A stretch of DNA of 64,000 nt from Branchiostoma floridae (lineage: Eukaryota > Chordata > Leptocardii > Amphioxiformes > Branchiostomatidae), in NCBI RefSeq assembly GCF_000003815.2, contig NC_049990.1:6656976-6720975 (forward strand). Direction: 5' to 3'. The notes under the pieces are model-generated. The model saw only the letters and a list, made by a program, of their open reading frames with translations. It was not told where the DNA came from and did not search any database. This document shows positions 2,738 through 36,632 of the stretch, piece by piece (the stretch's first letter is position 1; every line of letters begins with the position of its first letter). A program made the translations under genes and the position numbers.

Positions 2738-3843
2738 CTGAGTGGAGAAGGTGGTTATAAGAAAAAACATCATTATAGTGGTGTAAGTAATATTCAGTAG
2801 AAAAACAATAACGGGACCTTCATTTAATCACTAATGTCCTATCCATGGGACAGCCCTAGTCCAGTACTCATTTTCACCTGAGTGAAGTGAGGAAAGCTGT
2901 GTAAAGTGCCTTTCCCAAGGGCACAAAATCGGCGGCACAGCAGAATTTGGACTCAAGACCTCTCAGTCCTGAGCCAAACATGCTGCTGCTGCGCCACATG
3001 ATCCCACATCTCCTACTTGTAGATGATTCCTCACCTGAAATGGTGGGTGTTATAAAGTAATAAACTTCCTGGCATGTTTGACCAATTGCTGACGACACGC
3101 ATCCACAAGATTGTGTGCTAATAAGATCAAAAGTCTGTTACTGATTGGTCATCAGTATTGATCCTGAAGACGCTGACAGTGGTTGTTGAAAATTTGATCC
3201 GTGTGCACTTTTGTGTTGGAAGAAAATTGTTACTATGGTTACTACCAACATAAATGAGCTCCCATGATGACTTCTCACCTGTCCCACATGGTGAAGGTGG
3301 ACCTCTGTGTGGAGATCCCCATCCCTGCCACCTGGTCAGCTGTCAGACCCGCGGCTCGGATGGCCTCGTTCACAACATCTACAAAATCTGTCCACAGGAC
3401 TTCTGGGTCCATCTCCACCCAGCCAGGCTTAGGGTGCAGCAAGTGGACCTGTGGGAAAAGTAGCACATTGTTTCGATGGATAAGTCAAACAAGAGTCCAG
3501 GACAGGAGGAGCAGTAATCCAACTTTAGTGTTACTCCTACCCGGGTTCGCTTAAAAGGCTGGGCTGTCTACCAGGCCAGCCTACCTGGCCTGTCTACCTG
3601 GCCTGGCTATCACGTCAGGCTACTCAGATCCCCCCATTCATAGCCCCATCATATGGCACTCAGCCAAAATAGCTGATTGACAGGCATAGTAATTGCTAAT
3701 CTCCTGCCAGTGACCTGAGGTTGGCCTGTCCACCACTGGCTGGGCCCTTGGGAATGTGTCTGGGAGGCCTTCCTTGCAGCTGTCAGGATCTGTCAGGAAC
3801 ACAAGTACCAGTACTGTGTGTGTGTATGTTTGTGTGAGTGTGA

Positions 3844-3887
<44 letters not shown>

Positions 3888-5591
3888 ATGGGCTTGCCAG
3901 CAACAGAAATTTGTTTCTTTATTGAATATCTATCTAGAATAGAAACTATCTCAGCTCGTGCAACAAGAAGGAAGAGCATAAAATTGATAAATCACTGTAA
4001 AGCTAAACTTGTACTGACCAAGGGGGGTATAATTACATGTACCTCCTTGTTCTCTTAGTATATGCCATGTTGACATATACAATCTCGGTAGTCACATAGC
4101 CTTTTTGAGGCTATGGATTGTTATCCACTGTACAATTTTTGTGTCCAGTACAGAGCCCAATCATCTCCTAACTGCCAACAATCTCTCCGACCCCTTTGTG
4201 TGGAGTGGGGAAAATACTGTAAACAGCACAGATTTTGTGACATGTCAAAGGATTTAGATTTAAATAGATATAGATTTGAACCCAGGACCTCTGTTTTCTA
4301 GGTCTAACACCCTAAAGCATTTACCCAAGTACTTGAATGTGTTCCTGACACCTGCTATGAAGGCCTCCCAGACACATTCCCGAAGGGTCCAGCCAGTGGA
4401 CAGGCCAACCTTGGGTCACTAGCAGTGTTGGAGATTAGCAATTGCTATGCCTGTCAATCAGCTATTTTGGCTGAGTGCCATACGATGGGGCTATGAATGG
4501 GGGGATCTGAGTAGCCTGACGTGATAGCCAGGCCAGGTAGACAGGCCAGGTAGCCTGGCCTGGTAGACAGCCCAGCCTTTTAAGGGAACCCACTCCTACC
4601 CAACCGAAGAACTCTACTCTACTCTTCTCATGATGTTGTAACAGTGGGGTTTAAGCGCTGCCGAACTGACCACGCCAACGGCTCTAGAGCTTTTGGTGTT
4701 GTGGTTTCCGCGTTGGATTTGTAATCTGCCGAACCGGGTTCGATCCCGGGTGTCGGCATGTCTGTTTCTTTCTGTTCTTACTCGCCCCTCTGATTTCTTA
4801 CATTTGGTTCCCACACCAGGAATCGAACCCGGGCCTTGGCGGTGAGAGCACCAAATCCTAACCACTAGACCATATGGCCCCACTGTTAAATGTGAGTGTT
4901 TACGTATTTGTGTGTGGGTGCCTGTGGGTGTTCATGTACATGCATATTTGTGTGGAAATGTGTTTGCCGACAGTTCATACCCTGGGTGCCAGACCGGACT
5001 GGGCAGCCAAGTCTGGTTCCCAAGGTACTTAGATAATGACACCTTGTTTTGTCCACTTTCCCATAGGATTACTCTGTATTACTGGTATATAATGAAACAG
5101 TGTAGTCCCCCTTTTAAGACCAATTAAGACCAATATCAATGTAGCATACTTTATTTCGCAGTTCTGGTTTTGTGTCTGTGAACACAATAACTTGAATGTG
5201 CCTAGATGGATTATCTTGATACTGGGTATGTAAGTAGGTGTTAATGAGACATCGGAATGATTAGATTCTGGGCCCCTTGGCGATTTTCTGTGGATCGGCA
5301 GCGGAACTTCCAGTTTTGATATCTACTTTGTAAGATCACAATCTCTAACGTTACCTTCTTGCTGCTTGAACCCTTGACGTTGGCCAGCTTGTCGTACACA
5401 TGACATCGTAACGTCGTGGTGCCCACGTCCACCGCCACTACGTACTGGTCCCGCGGACCGTTCTGCCCTGCCTGATGCTTCGGGCTGTCCGGCACCTGCT
5501 CCCGAGGACCGTTTGGCGGCTGCTCGGTGGCTGAAGAATTGCCTAAAATGTTGGCATCATCCTGGGAAGAATTCTTTGCATCATCGGACAT
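2644..5591 (-). CDS. GK5: Glycerol kinase 5 (FGGY kinase), N-terminal three exons, partial
   Basis: FGGY-family sugar/polyol kinase; GK5 is a divergent glycerol kinase that would phosphorylate glycerol with ATP in the cytosol. Three coding exons are visible: 5355-5591, 3279-3448 and 2644-2737, all with GT donors and AG acceptors and with compatible phases (0, then 2). The spliced product begins with about 50 Pro/Gln/Asn-rich residues, then the phosphate-binding strand AVDVGTTTLRCHVYD (residues 53-67), then PGWVEMDPEVLW, GISTQRSTF and NFLTWQDLR, each closely matching vertebrate GK5 in order and spacing. About 167 residues are present against roughly 530 in the family, so the catalytic Asp region and the second ATPase lobe lie beyond the left edge of the window. 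No exon 4 was found in 1-2640. Intron 1 (3449-5354) and intron 2 (2738-3278) hold repeats. The gene is divergent from the AUNIP-like gene. Identity is based on family recognition by eye; I am confident. Confidence 0.9.
2835..3005 (-). mobile_element. tRNA-derived SINE fragment (same family as 17168-17661)
   Basis: On the minus strand, GTGGCGCAGCAG (box A-like), GAGTCCAAATTC (box B-like) and TTGTGCCCTTGGGAAAGGCA align with the full-length SINE at 17168. It lacks the 3' part and the A-tail. It sits inside GK5 intron 2. Confidence 0.7.
3279..3448 (-). CDS. GK5: GK5 coding exon 2
   Basis: Acceptor TTTTCCCACAG precedes VHLLHPKPGWVEMD; donor GTGAGAAG follows MWD plus two bases. The length is 170 nt. 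It encodes the conserved PGWVEMDP and GISTQRSTF segments of the N-terminal FGGY domain. Confidence 0.9.
3543..4591 (+). mobile_element. Foldback DNA element with about 240-bp inverted ends and 10-bp target duplication
   Basis: The ends GGGTTCGCTTAAAAGGCTGG and CCAGCCTTTTAAGGGAACCC are inverted; the arms continue to about 3800 and from about 4340 with strong identity (for example GATTGACAGGCATAG and CTATGCCTGTCAATC). Direct repeats ACTCCTACCC flank it at 3533-3542 and 4592-4601. Long inverted ends with a 9-11-bp duplication are typical of Mutator-like elements. The interior (3806-4338) includes a (TG)n run and no transposase. It lies in GK5 intron 1. Confidence 0.85.
3814..3883 (+). repeat. 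(TG)n microsatellite
   Basis: Interrupted then perfect TG dinucleotide run, inside the foldback element. ORFs across it are artefacts of the repeat. Confidence 0.97.
4674..4758 (+). repeat. tRNA-like sequence (possible SINE head)
   Basis: Contains a box-B-like GGGTTCGATCCC within a perfect T-stem, and GCCAACG opposite TGTCGGC as a weak acceptor stem. The 85-nt length and a poor D-arm argue against a functional tRNA. It faces the Glu-like tRNA at 4805-4879. Confidence 0.4.
4805..4879 (-). tRNA. tRNA-Glu(CTC)-like sequence with encoded CCA; probable retro-pseudogene
   Basis: On the minus strand, TGGTCTAGTGGTTAGGATT (D-arm, box A), an anticodon loop with CTC, CCGGGTTCGATTCCTGG (T-arm, box B) and 72 nt in total match metazoan tRNA-Glu. 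The acceptor stem has mismatches at pairs 1-72 (G/A) and 2-71 (G/G). A genomic CCA follows at 4805-4807, which eukaryotic tRNA genes do not normally encode, so this is more likely a reverse-transcribed copy than a working gene. Confidence 0.6.
5355..5591 (-). CDS. GK5: GK5 coding exon 1
   Basis: 79 codons from ATG (5589-5591) to an AAG that abuts a GTAACG donor at 5354-5353. It contains the first FGGY strand-turn, with DVGTTT as the phosphate loop. The sequence before residue 50 is low complexity and not conserved with vertebrates. The start is chosen because it is the first ATG in the open frame. Confidence 0.9.
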
Positions 5592-5910
5592 TTTAGAGAT
5601 GTTTTACAAGCAATCAGATGTTTAATGTAAGACTTTTAGCACCAAATCATCATGATCATTGCCACGGGACCAAACCAAAGTACATGTTGCTAAACTTTGG
5701 CTCTTTACCTTTGACCTTTACACAGCTGTTGTTTCCTACATTCTCTAAGTGCCTGTATACATGTTACATTTAAATTGCTAGCTCAAATTAAAAATGTCCA
5801 TTATCATTAGTAATGAAAGAAAGTTATACTCATGTTTTGGCAAATTTTTGGCATGTGCAAAGACAGCTATATGGTCACCTTTGACCCTAAATACGGAAGC
5901 GAACACACGT

Positions 5911-6372: not shown

Positions 6373-6447
6373 ATGGGAAAAAGGAAAGAACCAACCCACA
6401 AGCCTGTCCCTTGTGGGGTTTGGGTCTCCAAGAAGAGGGAGAAACAG
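6373..6447 (+). CDS. AUNIP: AUNIP-like coding exon 1
   Basis: 25 codons, from MGKRKEPTHK to KKREKQ, ending at a GTTTGT donor. The acceptor is at 6365-6366. The ATG has G at +4. It carries the CGVW signature (residues 14-17). Confidence 0.75.
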
Positions 6448-8071
6448 GTTTGTATTTAGCCTTATATCAGTAAAAATACATATATTTTTACACAATAAAT
6501 GTAACGTTAAGTAACGTTATAACAACTGCTAAAATATTACAATTCTTCTCATAAACTTATCAAGTTAACAGGAGACTATAACATGTTTATAGTATGGGCT
6601 GAGACTTCATCCTGTAAATTCATTAATCCATATGATTTGATTATACTTTAGAAGGAGAAAAGATATTAGATATATTATTGAACTTTTGGGCTATAATCTG
6701 TAATTTCATATGGTACCTGGGACTTAAATCTCATATACATTTTACCTTAATTCCTTTGTTTTGTCATAAAAATATTCTAACAATTCCTTTGAATTTTCAG
6801 CTGTTACTGCCCCAACCAAAGCGTGCCAGGCTGTCATCTGTGACTGTTATACCAGCACGGCAGACAGGTGGTGCTAGAGAGCTGCCCAAACGCCAGGCCA
6901 CGATAATGGAGATTTTTGGCTCAAGAGGAAGAAAAGATGCTGACACCGCAGCTGCTACATCCGGTACAAGTCTAATTTATGGTTTGTTTGTTTGTTTGTT
7001 TATTTGTTTGTTTTTCATAATGAGTGAGTGTGTTGAACACCAACGCTACTCATTCATGCCTAAGTTAAGTAAGGAAATCCAAGATTTATTCATGATCAGT
7101 ATTCAAACTTCATACTTGATCAAATTACCCCCATGTTACAATCACCCCCCCACACATAGTGACATCTTGTCAATGTGGGTAATTTTGCTTGCCATACATG
7201 TTATACAGGTACAGGACAAGACCAGGAGGAAGCTTCAGGTTCTAGCAAACAGGACACTACATTGTTGTCCCCAGAGTCAGCCAAGCAGGAAATCAGACAC
7301 AAAACTTCTAAAAGTGACAGCAACTGCAGCACAGCACAAAAGAATTCAGCAGTTGACTTGAAAAGCAAGGAAGGGTCAGAAGAAGAGGGACTCAGCTTTA
7401 GTTTGAGTGATGGCACACATACACAGAATGACCAACCTCTTTCCCCACTCAAGTACACACAAGATTCCGAAGGAAACCTTAGATGGAAAAGTCCATCCGA
7501 CTTGCTAAAAAGCGAGACCATTGATGACGTTTTTGCTCAAAATCAGACTGTAAGTAACTCAACAGCAGAAGCAAAACAACCACTGCATTTGAAGACAATA
7601 AGGAAACCTAGGGATGTAAACAAGAGTTGTGAAAATGTAAGATCCCAGAAAACAAGAGCAGAAAAAACGCTGCAGCAGATAGAAAAGCATGAAGTTTTGT
7701 CTCCACCGATGTATACTCTAAACACAGAAGGAGACCTGAAGGTGAAGTGGACAACAGAACAGGACTGTCCTCAGACAGGAGGTGACCAAAATGTACTTCT
7801 TAACGAAAAATTAACATTGGACACAATGCCATGTACAGAGGAATTGTCACCTCTGCAGTACACTTTAGACAGTCAGGGGGAGCTTGTGCACAATGAGAAC
7901 CACCATCGTGATAGTGTAGGAATAGAGAACTCAGAAGATAGTCATCCTCTAACATGTGAACCAAGTGATGTGGACAGTGATGATGACTCTCAGCTTTTAG
8001 AGCCAGGGGATTTCTCAGAGCTCAAGTACACATTAGACTCTGAAGGAGAACTTAGATATAAAAGAAACTAG
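6373..8071 (+). CDS. AUNIP: AUNIP-like protein (aurora kinase A and ninein-interacting protein family)
   Basis: Three coding exons, 6373-6447, 6801-6963 and 7209-8071, splice in phase (0, then 1) to 366 residues. The N-terminus CGVWVSKKREKQ, followed by a basic stretch and RQATIMEIFG, resembles the AUNIP N-terminus (CGVW..., then a basic Arg/Ser/Ile/Phe-Phe segment). The C-terminus LKYTLDSEGELRYKRN resembles the AUNIP terminal motif (FTQDSEG). The middle is hydrophilic and Ser/Glu/Lys-rich, with no membrane segment. Vertebrate AUNIP is a nuclear/centrosomal protein reported to bind Aurora A and ninein and to promote DNA-end resection with CtIP; the same role here is inference. The motif xLxYT.(D/N)(S/T)(E/Q)G.L occurs four times (residues 157-173, 243-260, 292-308, 348-364), more than I recall in vertebrates. 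An acceptor (CCAG) lies six bases before the ATG, so a 5' leader exon lies upstream. The gene is divergent from GK5. The RQATIMEIF segment could be a PIP-box-like motif. Confidence 0.72.
6801..6963 (+). CDS. AUNIP: AUNIP-like coding exon 2
   Basis: Acceptor TGAATTTTCAG, donor GTACAAGT. It encodes residues 26-79 plus one base: basic PKRARL and PKRQATIMEIFG. A (GTTT)n run begins in the intron 15-20 bases after the donor. Confidence 0.75.
6982..7013 (+). repeat. (GTTT)n microsatellite
   Basis: Tetranucleotide run in intron 2 of the AUNIP-like gene. Confidence 0.9.
7209..8071 (+). CDS. AUNIP: AUNIP-like terminal coding exon with four motif repeats
   Basis: Acceptor GTTATACAG at 7201-7208; stop TAG at 8069-8071. 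The exon encodes residues 80 (split) to 366. All four YT.DSEG-type repeats lie in this exon at 7439-7489, 7697-7750, 7844-7894 and 8012-8062. An AATAAA at about 8390 would serve as a polyadenylation signal. Confidence 0.78.
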
Positions 8072-8389
8072 TAACAAAGTCTAGGTCTTCAGGAAAAATC
8101 AGTTGGACACAATGTCATGCACATGCTCATTGTCAGCCTTTCTTTATCATTTTTCAGAAGAAATAGGAAAATGTTTGGATGAGAGATTATAGCTCTCCTA
8201 CTTTACTTACAGGAAATAACTAAATGATTCACTTTTAAGCCCCTATTTAAAAGGAATTGATTTCAATTTAGAATAGAAGGGGAAGGGGGAAAGTTTGTTT
8301 TAAGTTTGTAGTTGAAACTAGTCTGTAGTACTTAACTATAGCTATGAATTATACATTGGAAACACATTTCATTTGAAGTGTCATGCAAA

Positions 8390-24395: not shown

Positions 24396-25307
24396 ATTCC
24401 TAGGCCCTGACCCTCCCGCAGACGGCCGTCTTCCCCACGCTAAATGTCGTCGAGTAAACCCTGTTGACGACCGTCAGAAATGGAGAACCTTTGTGGACAG
24501 ACAGACTGCCCTGTGGCTTGTAGCTATGGGACTGAGATGAGATGATGATGAGAAACCCTGTGTGGAACAATATTAGACGTTGTGTTCATTATTCAAGATG
24601 CATAACGTTACAGATAAAAAATTATCAACATTTATTTGTACCTTCTTGTCTTATCCTGTGTCAACATCTGCAACTATTTCAGTTTACCCTTCCTGGTAGA
24701 AATGCTAGGCTAGACCATGTGAAGGTAACATTCTGTATTTGCTTGCAAATGTTACCTGTCTAGTCTTATATTCCTTTCTATCATGAGCACCCGAGACATT
24801 TCTGCCTTTCGTGCACATCGTATTGTTAGCCTCTAAGCTATTTTGAAACGGGTTCTGTATATATAAGGACTATGTCAGCCTCCACCAGGCCTTCTTTAGA
24901 GGCTATGGACAGCAGAATTTGGTGAATAATTGTCCATGACAGTGAACCCGGGTAAGGGTCATATTTCCTCATGGCAACAAATAATGTGGTGGCCAAACTC
25001 TGACAATTTTTTTTTCTCTATTTGGCTAAATTTTATCAGTTTTCAGCCAGTTTATTTTGTCCGATGGGGACTAAGACCTAGCAGCTAAAATACGGAAGGA
25101 TACCAGGCTAGCACTACCCTTGTGGACATCAAGAACAAAACAGGCTTCACGAAAAAATGGTCTTTTGTTGTGTTCCTTTCCTATTCAAACGAGTCGTCAC
25201 CATAGCTACCCCCTCCAATGGAGGTTAGCCCCACGCGGTTTCACTAACATTTCTGTATTCTATTGTTGTTGCAGTGACACGCCGGGGAAGAAGAGAGAGG
25301 TGCAGCC

Positions 25308-26153
25308 ATGTTGTTGAGAAAGTCTCTCTCCTTGCTGACGCTACGGCGCGGAAAGGACGTCGAAGCCATCGAACTGTCTGAGACAGAGGCGTCGCGACAG
25401 AAGACGCGTCACGTCGGATTTATGGTGGTGTACGTCGGTAAAGTACCGCTTGGAGACGGCGTTACGCCGGGGCCTGGATGCACCGAGGCCGCCGTGGCCC
25501 AGTTAGTCGGACCGGCAGCAGCAAACGGCAACGTGGAGGTTCCAGGCCGCTTGGACATACTTCCACACGGGATTAGACTGTCGAAGACTCCAGAGGAGAG
25601 TGACGACGACATTGGCGTTCAACAACAGCAACAAAACCAGGACACGCTGACGACGTTTGACTTGCAGAGAATCGCCTTCTGTTCGGCAGACCACAAGGCG
25701 AGGAACAATGTGTTCTCCTGGGTGTACCGAGAGGTTGGGGAGGTCGGGCGGCCCGTGCTGGAATGCCACGCGGTGTTGTGTGAGAGTCAGCGCCACGCCA
25801 AGTTCTTCGCGCTCCGGCTCGGCCACTTCTTCAACTCCGCCTGGAACCAGATGGCGCGCGCCGAGCAGTCGCTGCGACTCCTTCAGGAGGGAAGGAAGAT
25901 TCGAAGAAGCAGCACCCAACACGAATGTCTTGGCACCTCCTCCACGACGACAACAACATATCCTAAAGCCCCTCACGATCACCGAGACCTGGACTCTTCG
26001 CAAACCAACGGAGTCGCAGGCAAACCAACACAGAACGGTGCGGTGGTACCAACAACAGGGGCACACATTTCGGCAGAGTCCGGCCAGGACATGTTGAAGA
26101 ACGCTGACATCCAACATACATCTCAAAATGGCGTTGCCGAGATCTTCATATAA
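25308..26153 (+). CDS. PID1: PID1, phosphotyrosine-interaction-domain protein 1
   Basis: A single coding exon of 281 residues. The N-terminus MLLRKSLSLLTLRRG..EAIEL and the PTB core match vertebrate PID1 (NYGGF4): YVGKVPLGDG with GCTEAAV opens the PTB domain (about residue 36), and RIAFCSADH, FSWVYREV and LECHAVLCES complete it (residues 121-160), closing with a helix to about residue 182. PID1 is a cytosolic adaptor that binds the LRP1 NPxY tail and dampens insulin/PI3K signalling in mammals; the same role here is inference. A Q-rich insert (QQQQQNQ, residues 105-111) and a Ser/Thr/Asn-rich tail after residue 200 lengthen it beyond the roughly 250-residue vertebrate form. The acceptor TTGTTGCAG (ends 25274) lies 33 bases before the ATG, so at least one 5' non-coding exon lies upstream and was not located. 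An ATTAAA near 26669 is a possible polyadenylation signal. The GC-rich exon stands out from AT-rich flanks. Confidence 0.88.
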   Translation: MLLRKSLSLLTLRRGKDVEAIELSETEASRQKTRHVGFMVVYVGKVPLGDGVTPGPGCTEAAVAQLVGPAAANGNVEVPGRLDILPHGIRLSKTPEESDDDIGVQQQQQNQDTLTTFDLQRIAFCSADHKARNNVFSWVYREVGEVGRPVLECHAVLCESQRHAKFFALRLGHFFNSAWNQMARAEQSLRLLQEGRKIRRSSTQHECLGTSSTTTTTYPKAPHDHRDLDSSQTNGVAGKPTQNGAVVPTTGAHISAESGQDMLKNADIQHTSQNGVAEIFI

Positions 26154-34495: not shown

Positions 34496-35597
34496 TATAC
34501 AGTTTTCTTGTTGCATACACAAAAAAAGGCCCAACCCTTATAAAGCCTGCTATTGAGGCTATACCTCATATGTCCTGTCTAATAATGACGCTTCCACGCC
34601 TTTTGCTTAAGGCAGACCCACGTGATCGTTATGTACCACGGCGCTGGAGTATCGTTACGAGGCCAGTGCGGTTTCTCCAATTCCTTTGCCTTTATTTCTA
34701 ATCATGTATCTGCGGGCACAGAATCAATTCCACTTTTTACGTTCCTGAGCGAATTCACACCCACCCACACATTTTGTACGGCATGTTGGTTCTCAATGCC
34801 TGTGGATGAGAGCGGTGTTTTGGTGTAAGAGAATCCGGTGTTTACACTAGAGGAGGGGCTTTTGTTGTGCCTGTTATATCAGGCACCGATACAGCAGCAG
34901 CAAGGGATACCCTCTGCTCTACATTCGGCCGCACCGAAAATTATCCTCAGTTCAAAACGAGAGGTGACTCCAGGCTTGAACCTTAAGGTTCTCTCTGTCT
35001 CTTCACTCGAAGCAAGGCTATAGAACGGTTGCTCTTGATAATTTCTCTACCACTGAATCATCGACCAGACCTGGAATCTGTTCTCCATGCGGAAGGCTGA
35101 GTGTTTGTACGGGTAAATGCCAGCGATTTGCCTGACAAACGCGCGTGCCAGAACACTGTACTGGGGATACACGTCCGACTGGTTCTGCCGTTGTGAATGC
35201 CGGGACGGGTCGCGTTGTCGGATCCCCATTGTAGTGGTTGCGTGACCTCAGGCTTCGCGGGCTCGCCTGCCATGCAAATTCCTCCCCCGTGACTAGCTGA
35301 GCTATCTCTCTCCACCGTGAACGAGGAATAACCGTCTGAACTGTAAGCAGCACTGCTAGCACGAGACTGACAGAAATATGACCACCCCGCGTGAAAACGC
35401 GAGAACCTGTGGACTGACTGGAGGACAAGGAGGTCGCAGACTCATTTACTGACGTCCCTGTGTGGCCCTGCCGTGCGTATGAATAGTCATGGCGAACCCC
35501 CAGCTGTAGGAAGTACTATAGAGGTGAGTCGCCGGCGTTACTACCAACCCTAGAGCGCCCCGGAGACATCCTCACCTGTGGTGCCAGGCCACACGAC

Positions 35598-36632
35598 ATG
35601 TTCAAGCGGAAGCACAAGGCACGGTTCTCGGACCTGTACGACACCATGCCCGAGGAGACCCTACCGTACAGCCGTACGGGCTCCCTGAAGAGAGTGCTGA
35701 AGTCGTCGCTGCGCAGGAAGCGACGGGAACTGGACATTAGTCAGGAAGACCCCACCTATAGTTGCGTGTACCTTGGGAATGCTGCTACTTTACACGCCAA
35801 AGGGGAAGGGTCCACGGACAATGCTGTTAAGACAATATGGACTAAATCGAACAAGGGAAAATCTGGTTCGAGAATGAAACTGTCTATAGGGAATCAGGGC
35901 ATAACCCTGACATACGCAGACAAGGACAGCACGAAGGGTGGACAGTTGTACATGTTGCACAGAATAACCTATTGCGTGGCCGACAAGAATGTGCCGAGAA
36001 TCTTCGCCTGGATTTACCGACACGAGGTCAAACTGAAGGCGGTCATGCTGCGCTGCCACGCCGTCTACGTCAAGAAGGAAGAGACCGCCAAAGCCATGGC
36101 CTTACTCTTGTATCAGACATTCTCAACGAGCTTGGAGAACTATAAGAGAGAAAAGAAGGAAAGTGAACGACACAGGGAAAGGGCAGGTATCCCCTGGCCC
36201 ATGACGGTGCCCCGCAGAAAGCTTATCAAGTCAACCGTGGAGTTTAAGCCACCTGTGGAACGCAGTCGGTCGGCGCCCAAGCTCGGGTGTATCACCGAGG
36301 ACGACGCCGAGGAAGACGCACAAGTCGAACAGCAAGAGGCGCTGAACCATTCCGAATCCTCTCACAGACACTTGACAGAAGCGATAGAAGAGGAAGACGA
36401 AGAGGAAGAGGAGGGCAGATATCAGGATGCAGAAGGGGAAGGGGAAGGGGACAGCGGCATCGTCAGCAATGGTGACGATGAAGAACTCATTTCTCGCGGA
36501 GTCATGGAGCTTGATATCGGCAATAACTTACACGACTTGCAATCGGACCAGGCTGTCGCGACCTTAATGTTTGGAGACATCGGACTAGAGGAGGAGGAAC
36601 AGGACTACGAAGAAGAGGAAACAAGATTGTAG
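35598..36632 (+). CDS. FAM43: FAM43 (PTB-domain protein, FAM43A/B orthologue)
   Basis: An intronless coding region of 344 residues, as in vertebrate FAM43A and FAM43B. A basic N-terminus precedes ISQEDPTYSCVYLGNAATL, which opens a PTB/PID domain (about residues 50-182). The domain includes WTKSNKGKSGSRMKL, HRITYCVAD, IFAWIYRHE, KAVMLRCHAV and AMALLLYQTF, all near-identical in order to FAM43. After it comes the family signature KPPVERSRSAPKLG (217-230), an acidic stretch rich in Glu/Asp (about 232-290), and a conserved helix LHDLQSDQAVATLMFGD (311-327). The protein is probably cytosolic and its function is poorly known. The first ATG after the in-frame leader is used. No splice signal is seen in the leader. 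The 3' UTR runs into an assembly gap 95 bases after the stop, so no polyadenylation site can be assigned. It shares ancestry of the PTB fold with PID1 9.4 kb upstream on the same strand. Confidence 0.93.
   Translation: MFKRKHKARFSDLYDTMPEETLPYSRTGSLKRVLKSSLRRKRRELDISQEDPTYSCVYLGNAATLHAKGEGSTDNAVKTIWTKSNKGKSGSRMKLSIGNQGITLTYADKDSTKGGQLYMLHRITYCVADKNVPRIFAWIYRHEVKLKAVMLRCHAVYVKKEETAKAMALLLYQTFSTSLENYKREKKESERHRERAGIPWPMTVPRRKLIKSTVEFKPPVERSRSAPKLGCITEDDAEEDAQVEQQEALNHSESSHRHLTEAIEEEDEEEEEGRYQDAEGEGEGDSGIVSNGDDEELISRGVMELDIGNNLHDLQSDQAVATLMFGDIGLEEEEQDYEEEETRL

Follow-up and report, generated by a model that had tools for sequence, protein, structure and literature searches.

A probable distant AUNIP homologue in the lancelet Branchiostoma floridae with four copies of a putative hairpin-forming peptide

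In the study that describes its role, human AUNIP is brought to DNA damage by residues 25-70, which are also needed for binding of fork-like DNA, and residues 281-357 bind CtIP directly, whereas residues 1-280 do not; AUNIP orthologues are given there as restricted to vertebrates and the protein as being without a known functional motif (PMC5645412). CtIP is described as a tetramer in a further study (PMC6344080). Here we describe a gene of the lancelet Branchiostoma floridae, located in a stretch of 64,000 nucleotides (contig NC_049990.1, positions 6,656,976 to 6,720,975 of the forward strand; hereafter the window), whose predicted product of 366 residues is probably a distant homologue of AUNIP. 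A short peptide that human AUNIP contains twice is present four times in this product.

The predicted gene consists of three coding exons:

6373..6447, plus strand: coding exon 1, MGKRKEPTHKPVPCGVWVSKKREKQ, with CGVW at residues 14-17; open frame, GT donor
6801..6963, plus strand: coding exon 2, with a basic stretch and QATIMEIF (residues 57-64), which resembles a PCNA-interacting protein (PIP) box; AG acceptor, GT donor, in frame
7209..8071, plus strand: coding exon 3, encoding all motif copies; in-frame join, TAG stop at 8069-8071

Both predicted introns (phases 0 and 1) are bounded by GT and AG and the frame is kept throughout, in agreement with the three-exon protein of 366 residues proposed in the first-pass annotation. 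An acceptor-like CAG lies directly 5' of the ATG, which implies that an untranslated first exon likely precedes it and that the 5' end of the gene model is uncertain.

The core of the repeated peptide, [YF]T.[DN][ST][EQ]G, starts at residues 162, 248, 297 and 353, so that the cores are spaced 49-86 residues apart. The four 19-residue units are given below together with the strands of a structure model of residues 81-366 (80 is to be added to the strand positions to obtain the protein numbering):

7433..7489, plus strand: motif copy 1, QPLSPLKYTQDSEGNLRWK, residues 155-173; model strands 82-84 and 90-92
7691..7747, plus strand: motif copy 2, EVLSPPMYTLNTEGDLKVK, residues 241-259; model strands 167-170 and 176-179
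7838..7894, plus strand: motif copy 3, EELSPLQYTLDSQGELVHN, residues 290-308, core 70 residues from the C-terminus; model strands 216-219 and 225-228
8006..8062, plus strand: motif copy 4, GDFSELKYTLDSEGELRYK, residues 346-364, core 14 residues from the C-terminus; model strands 271-275 and 281-285

The four spaced copies noticed in the first-pass annotation are all present and exceed what shuffling yields: among 200,000 shuffles of the 366-residue protein, 27 contained one core match and none contained two or more. Likewise, a degenerate DNA pattern, which leaves out copy 2 (N-T in place of D-S), matched three times in the window, always in exon 3, and not once in any of 100 shuffled windows. 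Two details of the earlier description need correction, since its range for copy 2 (243-260) extends one residue past the end of the unit, and the (S)-P placed ahead of the motif holds for copies 1-3 (3/4), which are preceded by L-S-P, whereas copy 4 reads F-S-E.

Across all four units S, Y, T, G and L are invariant. In pairwise comparisons of the copies (19 codons), the proportion of silent differences (pS) was 0.58-1.03 and that of non-silent differences (pN) 0.27-0.39, with pS exceeding pN in 6/6 pairs; the number of silent sites is only about 12-13 per pair, which makes single pS values rough. For linkers 1 and 3, no significant match was obtained with one another, with linker 2 or with the 3' untranslated region (3'UTR). 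Since the motif appears constrained (pS > pN) and these linkers share no similarity, the peptide is better kept than either its own silent sites or linkers 1 and 3 and represents the conserved kernel of this region. An origin of the array in which a module of two copies was doubled, copies 1-2 deriving from copies 3-4, was considered and rejected, since motif DNA places copy 1 nearest to copy 4 (38/57) and farthest from copy 3 (27/57); linkers 1 and 3 do not support it either.

The comparison with human AUNIP (C1orf135/AIBp) was made with a sequence of 357 residues, which matches PF15334 (AIB) at 613.6 bits along the full model (positions 1-324); this match covers residues 26-350 and leaves CGVW and the last seven residues outside. 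The two proteins are alike in length (366 residues in the lancelet, 357 in human), in CGVW near the N-terminus (starting at residue 14 and 11, respectively), in a terminal [FY]T.DSEG core (at a distance of 14 and 15 residues from the C-terminal end) and in an internal core that lies 70 residues from this end in both, corresponding to copy 3 of the lancelet protein. Moreover, both have a basic N-terminus (net charge +12 and +9 over 80 residues) and fall on the disordered side of the charge-hydropathy plot. The lancelet protein differs by its two extra motif copies, by L-S-P ahead of copies 1-3, by being two residues shorter past the DSEG turn in the alignment, and by the degenerate form of its PIP-like box. 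With the same core pattern, the human sequence gave two matches, FTEDSQG at 288 and FTQDSEG at 343. What had been called a four-fold expansion is thus a doubling over human, which may reflect either gain in the lancelet lineage or loss in vertebrates. The "weaker internal" copy attributed to vertebrate AUNIP is to be corrected for the human protein, as both human copies fit the core pattern, although the internal one does have the lower score in a profile built from the four lancelet copies (-1.1 against 7.3 bits).

The occurrence of CGVW within the first 20 residues together with a core within the last 16 has a chance of about 4e-11 per protein, or 8e-7 over 20,000 proteins, as calculated with assumed residue background frequencies. 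Because the CGVW start and the core end, in this order, are jointly so rare, we consider it likely that the gene encodes an AUNIP homologue, albeit a distant one. The C-terminal 76 residues aligned with the human 76 residues at a score of 52, the best of 5000 shuffles reaching 39; this test is partly circular, as the motif guided the choice of region. For the N-terminal 72 residues against 78 human residues, the score was reached by 3/5000 shuffles in global and 18/5000 in local alignment.

Several results weigh against this homology. Pfam gave no match for the whole protein or its three pieces at expectation values (E) up to 10, and none for exon 3 with a limit of E 1, so that the profile comparison proposed in the first-pass annotation turned out negative; its assignment to AUNIP from CGVW and the terminal motif is likely but falls short of proof. 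The cut-off of PF15334 (27 bits) was not reached by the lancelet protein, which is a weak test with a model representing human residues 26-350 only: this model has little power here because neither CGVW nor the last seven residues belong to it and because the middles of the two proteins are dissimilar. Indeed, the middle of the lancelet protein showed no similarity to human AUNIP (804/1000 shuffles scored as well), and exon 2 alone was not significant against human residues 21-78, with 1108/5000 (global) and 2750/5000 (local) shuffles as good. The four-copy profile totals 9.8 bits on human AUNIP, barely above the best listed of 10,000 shuffles (9.5 bits), and the best single human copy, at the 7.3 bits given above, was beaten by one shuffle (8.4 bits) and equalled by another. 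That an internal copy lies at the position of the human one has by itself a chance of about 4%, given three internal copies. In the source genome (513,431,437 bases, 431 contigs), the human AUNIP query found no match at E up to 10, with five candidates scored. PF15334 gave no match there either, a result that is uninformative, as none of 14 control genomes matched. Finally, macoilin and MTFR1 family genes, which lie near AUNIP in human, provide no synteny support, since macoilin was found on contig C9 and the MTFR1 family on C76, a small contig, the latter result being uninformative.

The negative outcomes in Pfam, in the search with the human protein and for the two neighbour families would also be expected if the gene encoded an unrelated, lineage-specific disordered nuclear protein that had acquired a similar short motif by convergence. 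Such a protein would be very unlikely to carry the CGVW start and the core end in order and at similar distances, and we regard this explanation as improbable. In the open-licence literature AUNIP was not mentioned together with amphioxus (the term "lancelet" was not covered). A single literature match for AUNIP with an invertebrate orthologue proved false, being a superscript "a" in front of "UniProtKB".

To approach the shape of the repeated peptide, residues 81-366, the part encoded by exon 3, were modelled with AlphaFold2 from the single sequence. The model looks disordered overall, with a few short helices, and contains eight strands, which form four strand-gap-strand pairs, one per motif copy (model residues 82-92, 167-179, 216-228 and 271-285, plus 80 in protein numbering), and none elsewhere. 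From the order and spacing of the strands, beta-hairpins are indicated; the low confidence of the model (mean predicted local distance difference test, pLDDT, 45.2; predicted template modelling score, pTM, 0.16) and the deduction from strand order alone count against this part of the interpretation. Among PDB sequences, the four-copy profile matched, with E up to 10, only three, v31Bagel8, nvBagel4 and a "Cell surface protein", which we take to be beta-propellers, those of 8prj, 8prs and 8pra being designed. The resemblance is that of YAINPNGKLKWK to YTLDSEGELRYK; single full stretches score 1.2-2.3 bits, the E-values resulting from the summing of similar copies, and homology is not claimed. 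The weak "Bagel" matches would agree with a strand-turn-strand form.

Taken together with the data on the human protein, these features suggest a mode of action. The lancelet gene product would be a mostly disordered distant AUNIP homologue whose basic N-terminus may anchor it at damaged or stalled-fork DNA, as for human AUNIP, and whose C-terminal half would display the peptide Y-T-x-D-S-E-G-x-L-x-x-K, 14 to 19 residues long, four times. Either by itself or once bound, this peptide might fold as a small beta-hairpin in which the DSEG turn joins two strands. It would serve to dock a partner in repair, for which the resection factor CtIP, a tetramer, is the most likely candidate. Since a repeated peptide would meet a tetrameric partner, a gain in avidity may be expected, and four copies could allow a stronger avidity-based capture than the two of human AUNIP. 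Both human copies (288-294, 343-349) lie inside the CtIP-binding fragment 281-357, and the two copies are the clearest common part of this fragment and the lancelet protein. A SAE2/CtIP domain is encoded on contig C1 of the source genome, where two pieces scored above the cut-off (E 1.8e-4 and 0.02); among the 14 control genomes only E. coli responded, below the cut-off. Multivalent binding to one partner, which the first-pass annotation had suggested, would thereby take a sharper form through the strand pairs of the model and the mapped fragment. In proteins with repeated docking peptides (multivalent short linear motif proteins), short constrained peptides likewise sit in a disordered tail; the difference is that in the present case the partner is putative and the strand-turn-strand form predicted. 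AUNIP ancestry, CtIP as the partner, avidity, the narrowing of the fragment to the peptide and an effect of copy number are inferred, and we hold the explanation as a whole, an AUNIP homologue with a repeated hairpin-forming peptide that docks CtIP, to be about evenly balanced between right and wrong.

The true contacts with CtIP may be made by residues of the human fragment outside the motif, which also speaks against the proposed docking. The protein might be an AUNIP homologue whose peptide docks Aurora A, ninein or some beta-rich domain, with CtIP using other residues. In the accessible text, the mapping of the CtIP interaction ends at the 77-residue fragment (PMC5645412), and human AUNIP gave no match among solved structures at E up to 1, both of which would leave room for another partner; on the other side, the motif copies are the parts of that fragment most clearly held in common. 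We consider a partner other than CtIP for the peptide rather unlikely.

The N-terminal part of both proteins drew attention for a different reason. Residues 62-69 of human AUNIP, QRSIASFF, fit exactly the QxxIxxFF pattern of a PCNA-box within the 25-70 recruitment region, a pattern that occurred in 277/50,000 shuffles. The lancelet QATIMEIF is a degenerate form of this pattern at a similar place, and the looser pattern was found in 972/50,000 shuffles. Judged by titles, no PCNA-binding site of AUNIP was found in the open-licence literature, where PMC11675949, in its available portion, mentions co-expression only; AUNIP with PIP appears, again by title, in a gene-expression context only. AUNIP might be recruited through PCNA.

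The coding linker between copies 2 and 3 has a counterpart behind the stop codon:

7787..7852, plus strand: linker between copies 2 and 3, entering the start of copy 3; coding, repeated in the 3'UTR
8075..8139, plus strand: 3'UTR stretch similar to 7787-7852, starting 3 bases past the stop; 49/64 aligned bases identical

The local alignment score of the two stretches was 57, compared with 48 for the best of 500 shuffles, and was reached by 0/166 other stretches of the window (best 44). Copy 2 and its linker resemble, in order, copy 4 and the 3'UTR, and the similarity ends where copy 3 sets in, as would be expected if a duplication had run over the stop codon and turned 3'UTR into linker. However, the linker and its 3'UTR counterpart differ far less than do copies 2 and 4 at their silent sites (pS 0.91), so that the exchange would be younger than the copies or the stretch constrained. 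A genome-wide search with the linker returned its own locus only; as it also missed the 3'UTR copy, its sensitivity is low. A fifth, decayed motif in the 3'UTR was looked for and rejected: past 8135, the similarity to copies 2, 3 and 4 was matched or beaten by 1376, 300 and 1574 of 2000 shuffles, with copy 1 as a weak exception (33/2000).

The recurrence of linker 2-3 in the 3'UTR marks the locus as prone to duplication, and the extra copies might accordingly be passive products of local duplications in a disordered tail, the terminal copy alone working. Idle copies should decay, yet S, Y, T, G and L are kept in all four despite a silent-site difference of at least 58% per pair, and the dissimilarity of linkers 1 and 3 noted above also argues against passive copies, which we think hardly probable. 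A far-reaching version of the docking proposal, for which we see only a slim chance, would be that AUNIP pre-dates vertebrates, that YT.DSEG is an uncharacterised beta-hairpin dock for tetrameric CtIP, and that two copies became four here by duplications, at least one of them over the stop codon, making 3'UTR into the coding linker 2-3.

Further features of the window were noted beside this gene. Its head-to-head neighbour on the minus strand (5244-5603 and 3278-3484, the second exon by eye) looks like an FGGY kinase of the glycerol kinase 5 type; FGGY_N matched at E 0.02, below the cut-off, and a PDB glycerol kinase at E 0.77. On the plus strand, the open frames 25278-26150 and 35487-36629 carry a PID_2 phosphotyrosine-interaction domain (67.1 and 207.8 bits) and are presumably FAM43-like. 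A 460-residue open frame on the minus strand (1117-2496) matches zf-RVT at 38.4 bits and is probably a remnant of a retroelement of the LINE (long interspersed nuclear element) type.

A pre-vertebrate homologue that keeps mainly CGVW and the C-terminal peptide would be of importance for understanding AUNIP, since it would reveal which residues matter and would narrow the 77-residue CtIP-binding fragment to a testable peptide of about 15 residues. With its four natural copies, the lancelet protein would, in addition, offer a direct way to ask whether the recruitment of CtIP is tuned by the number of copies.
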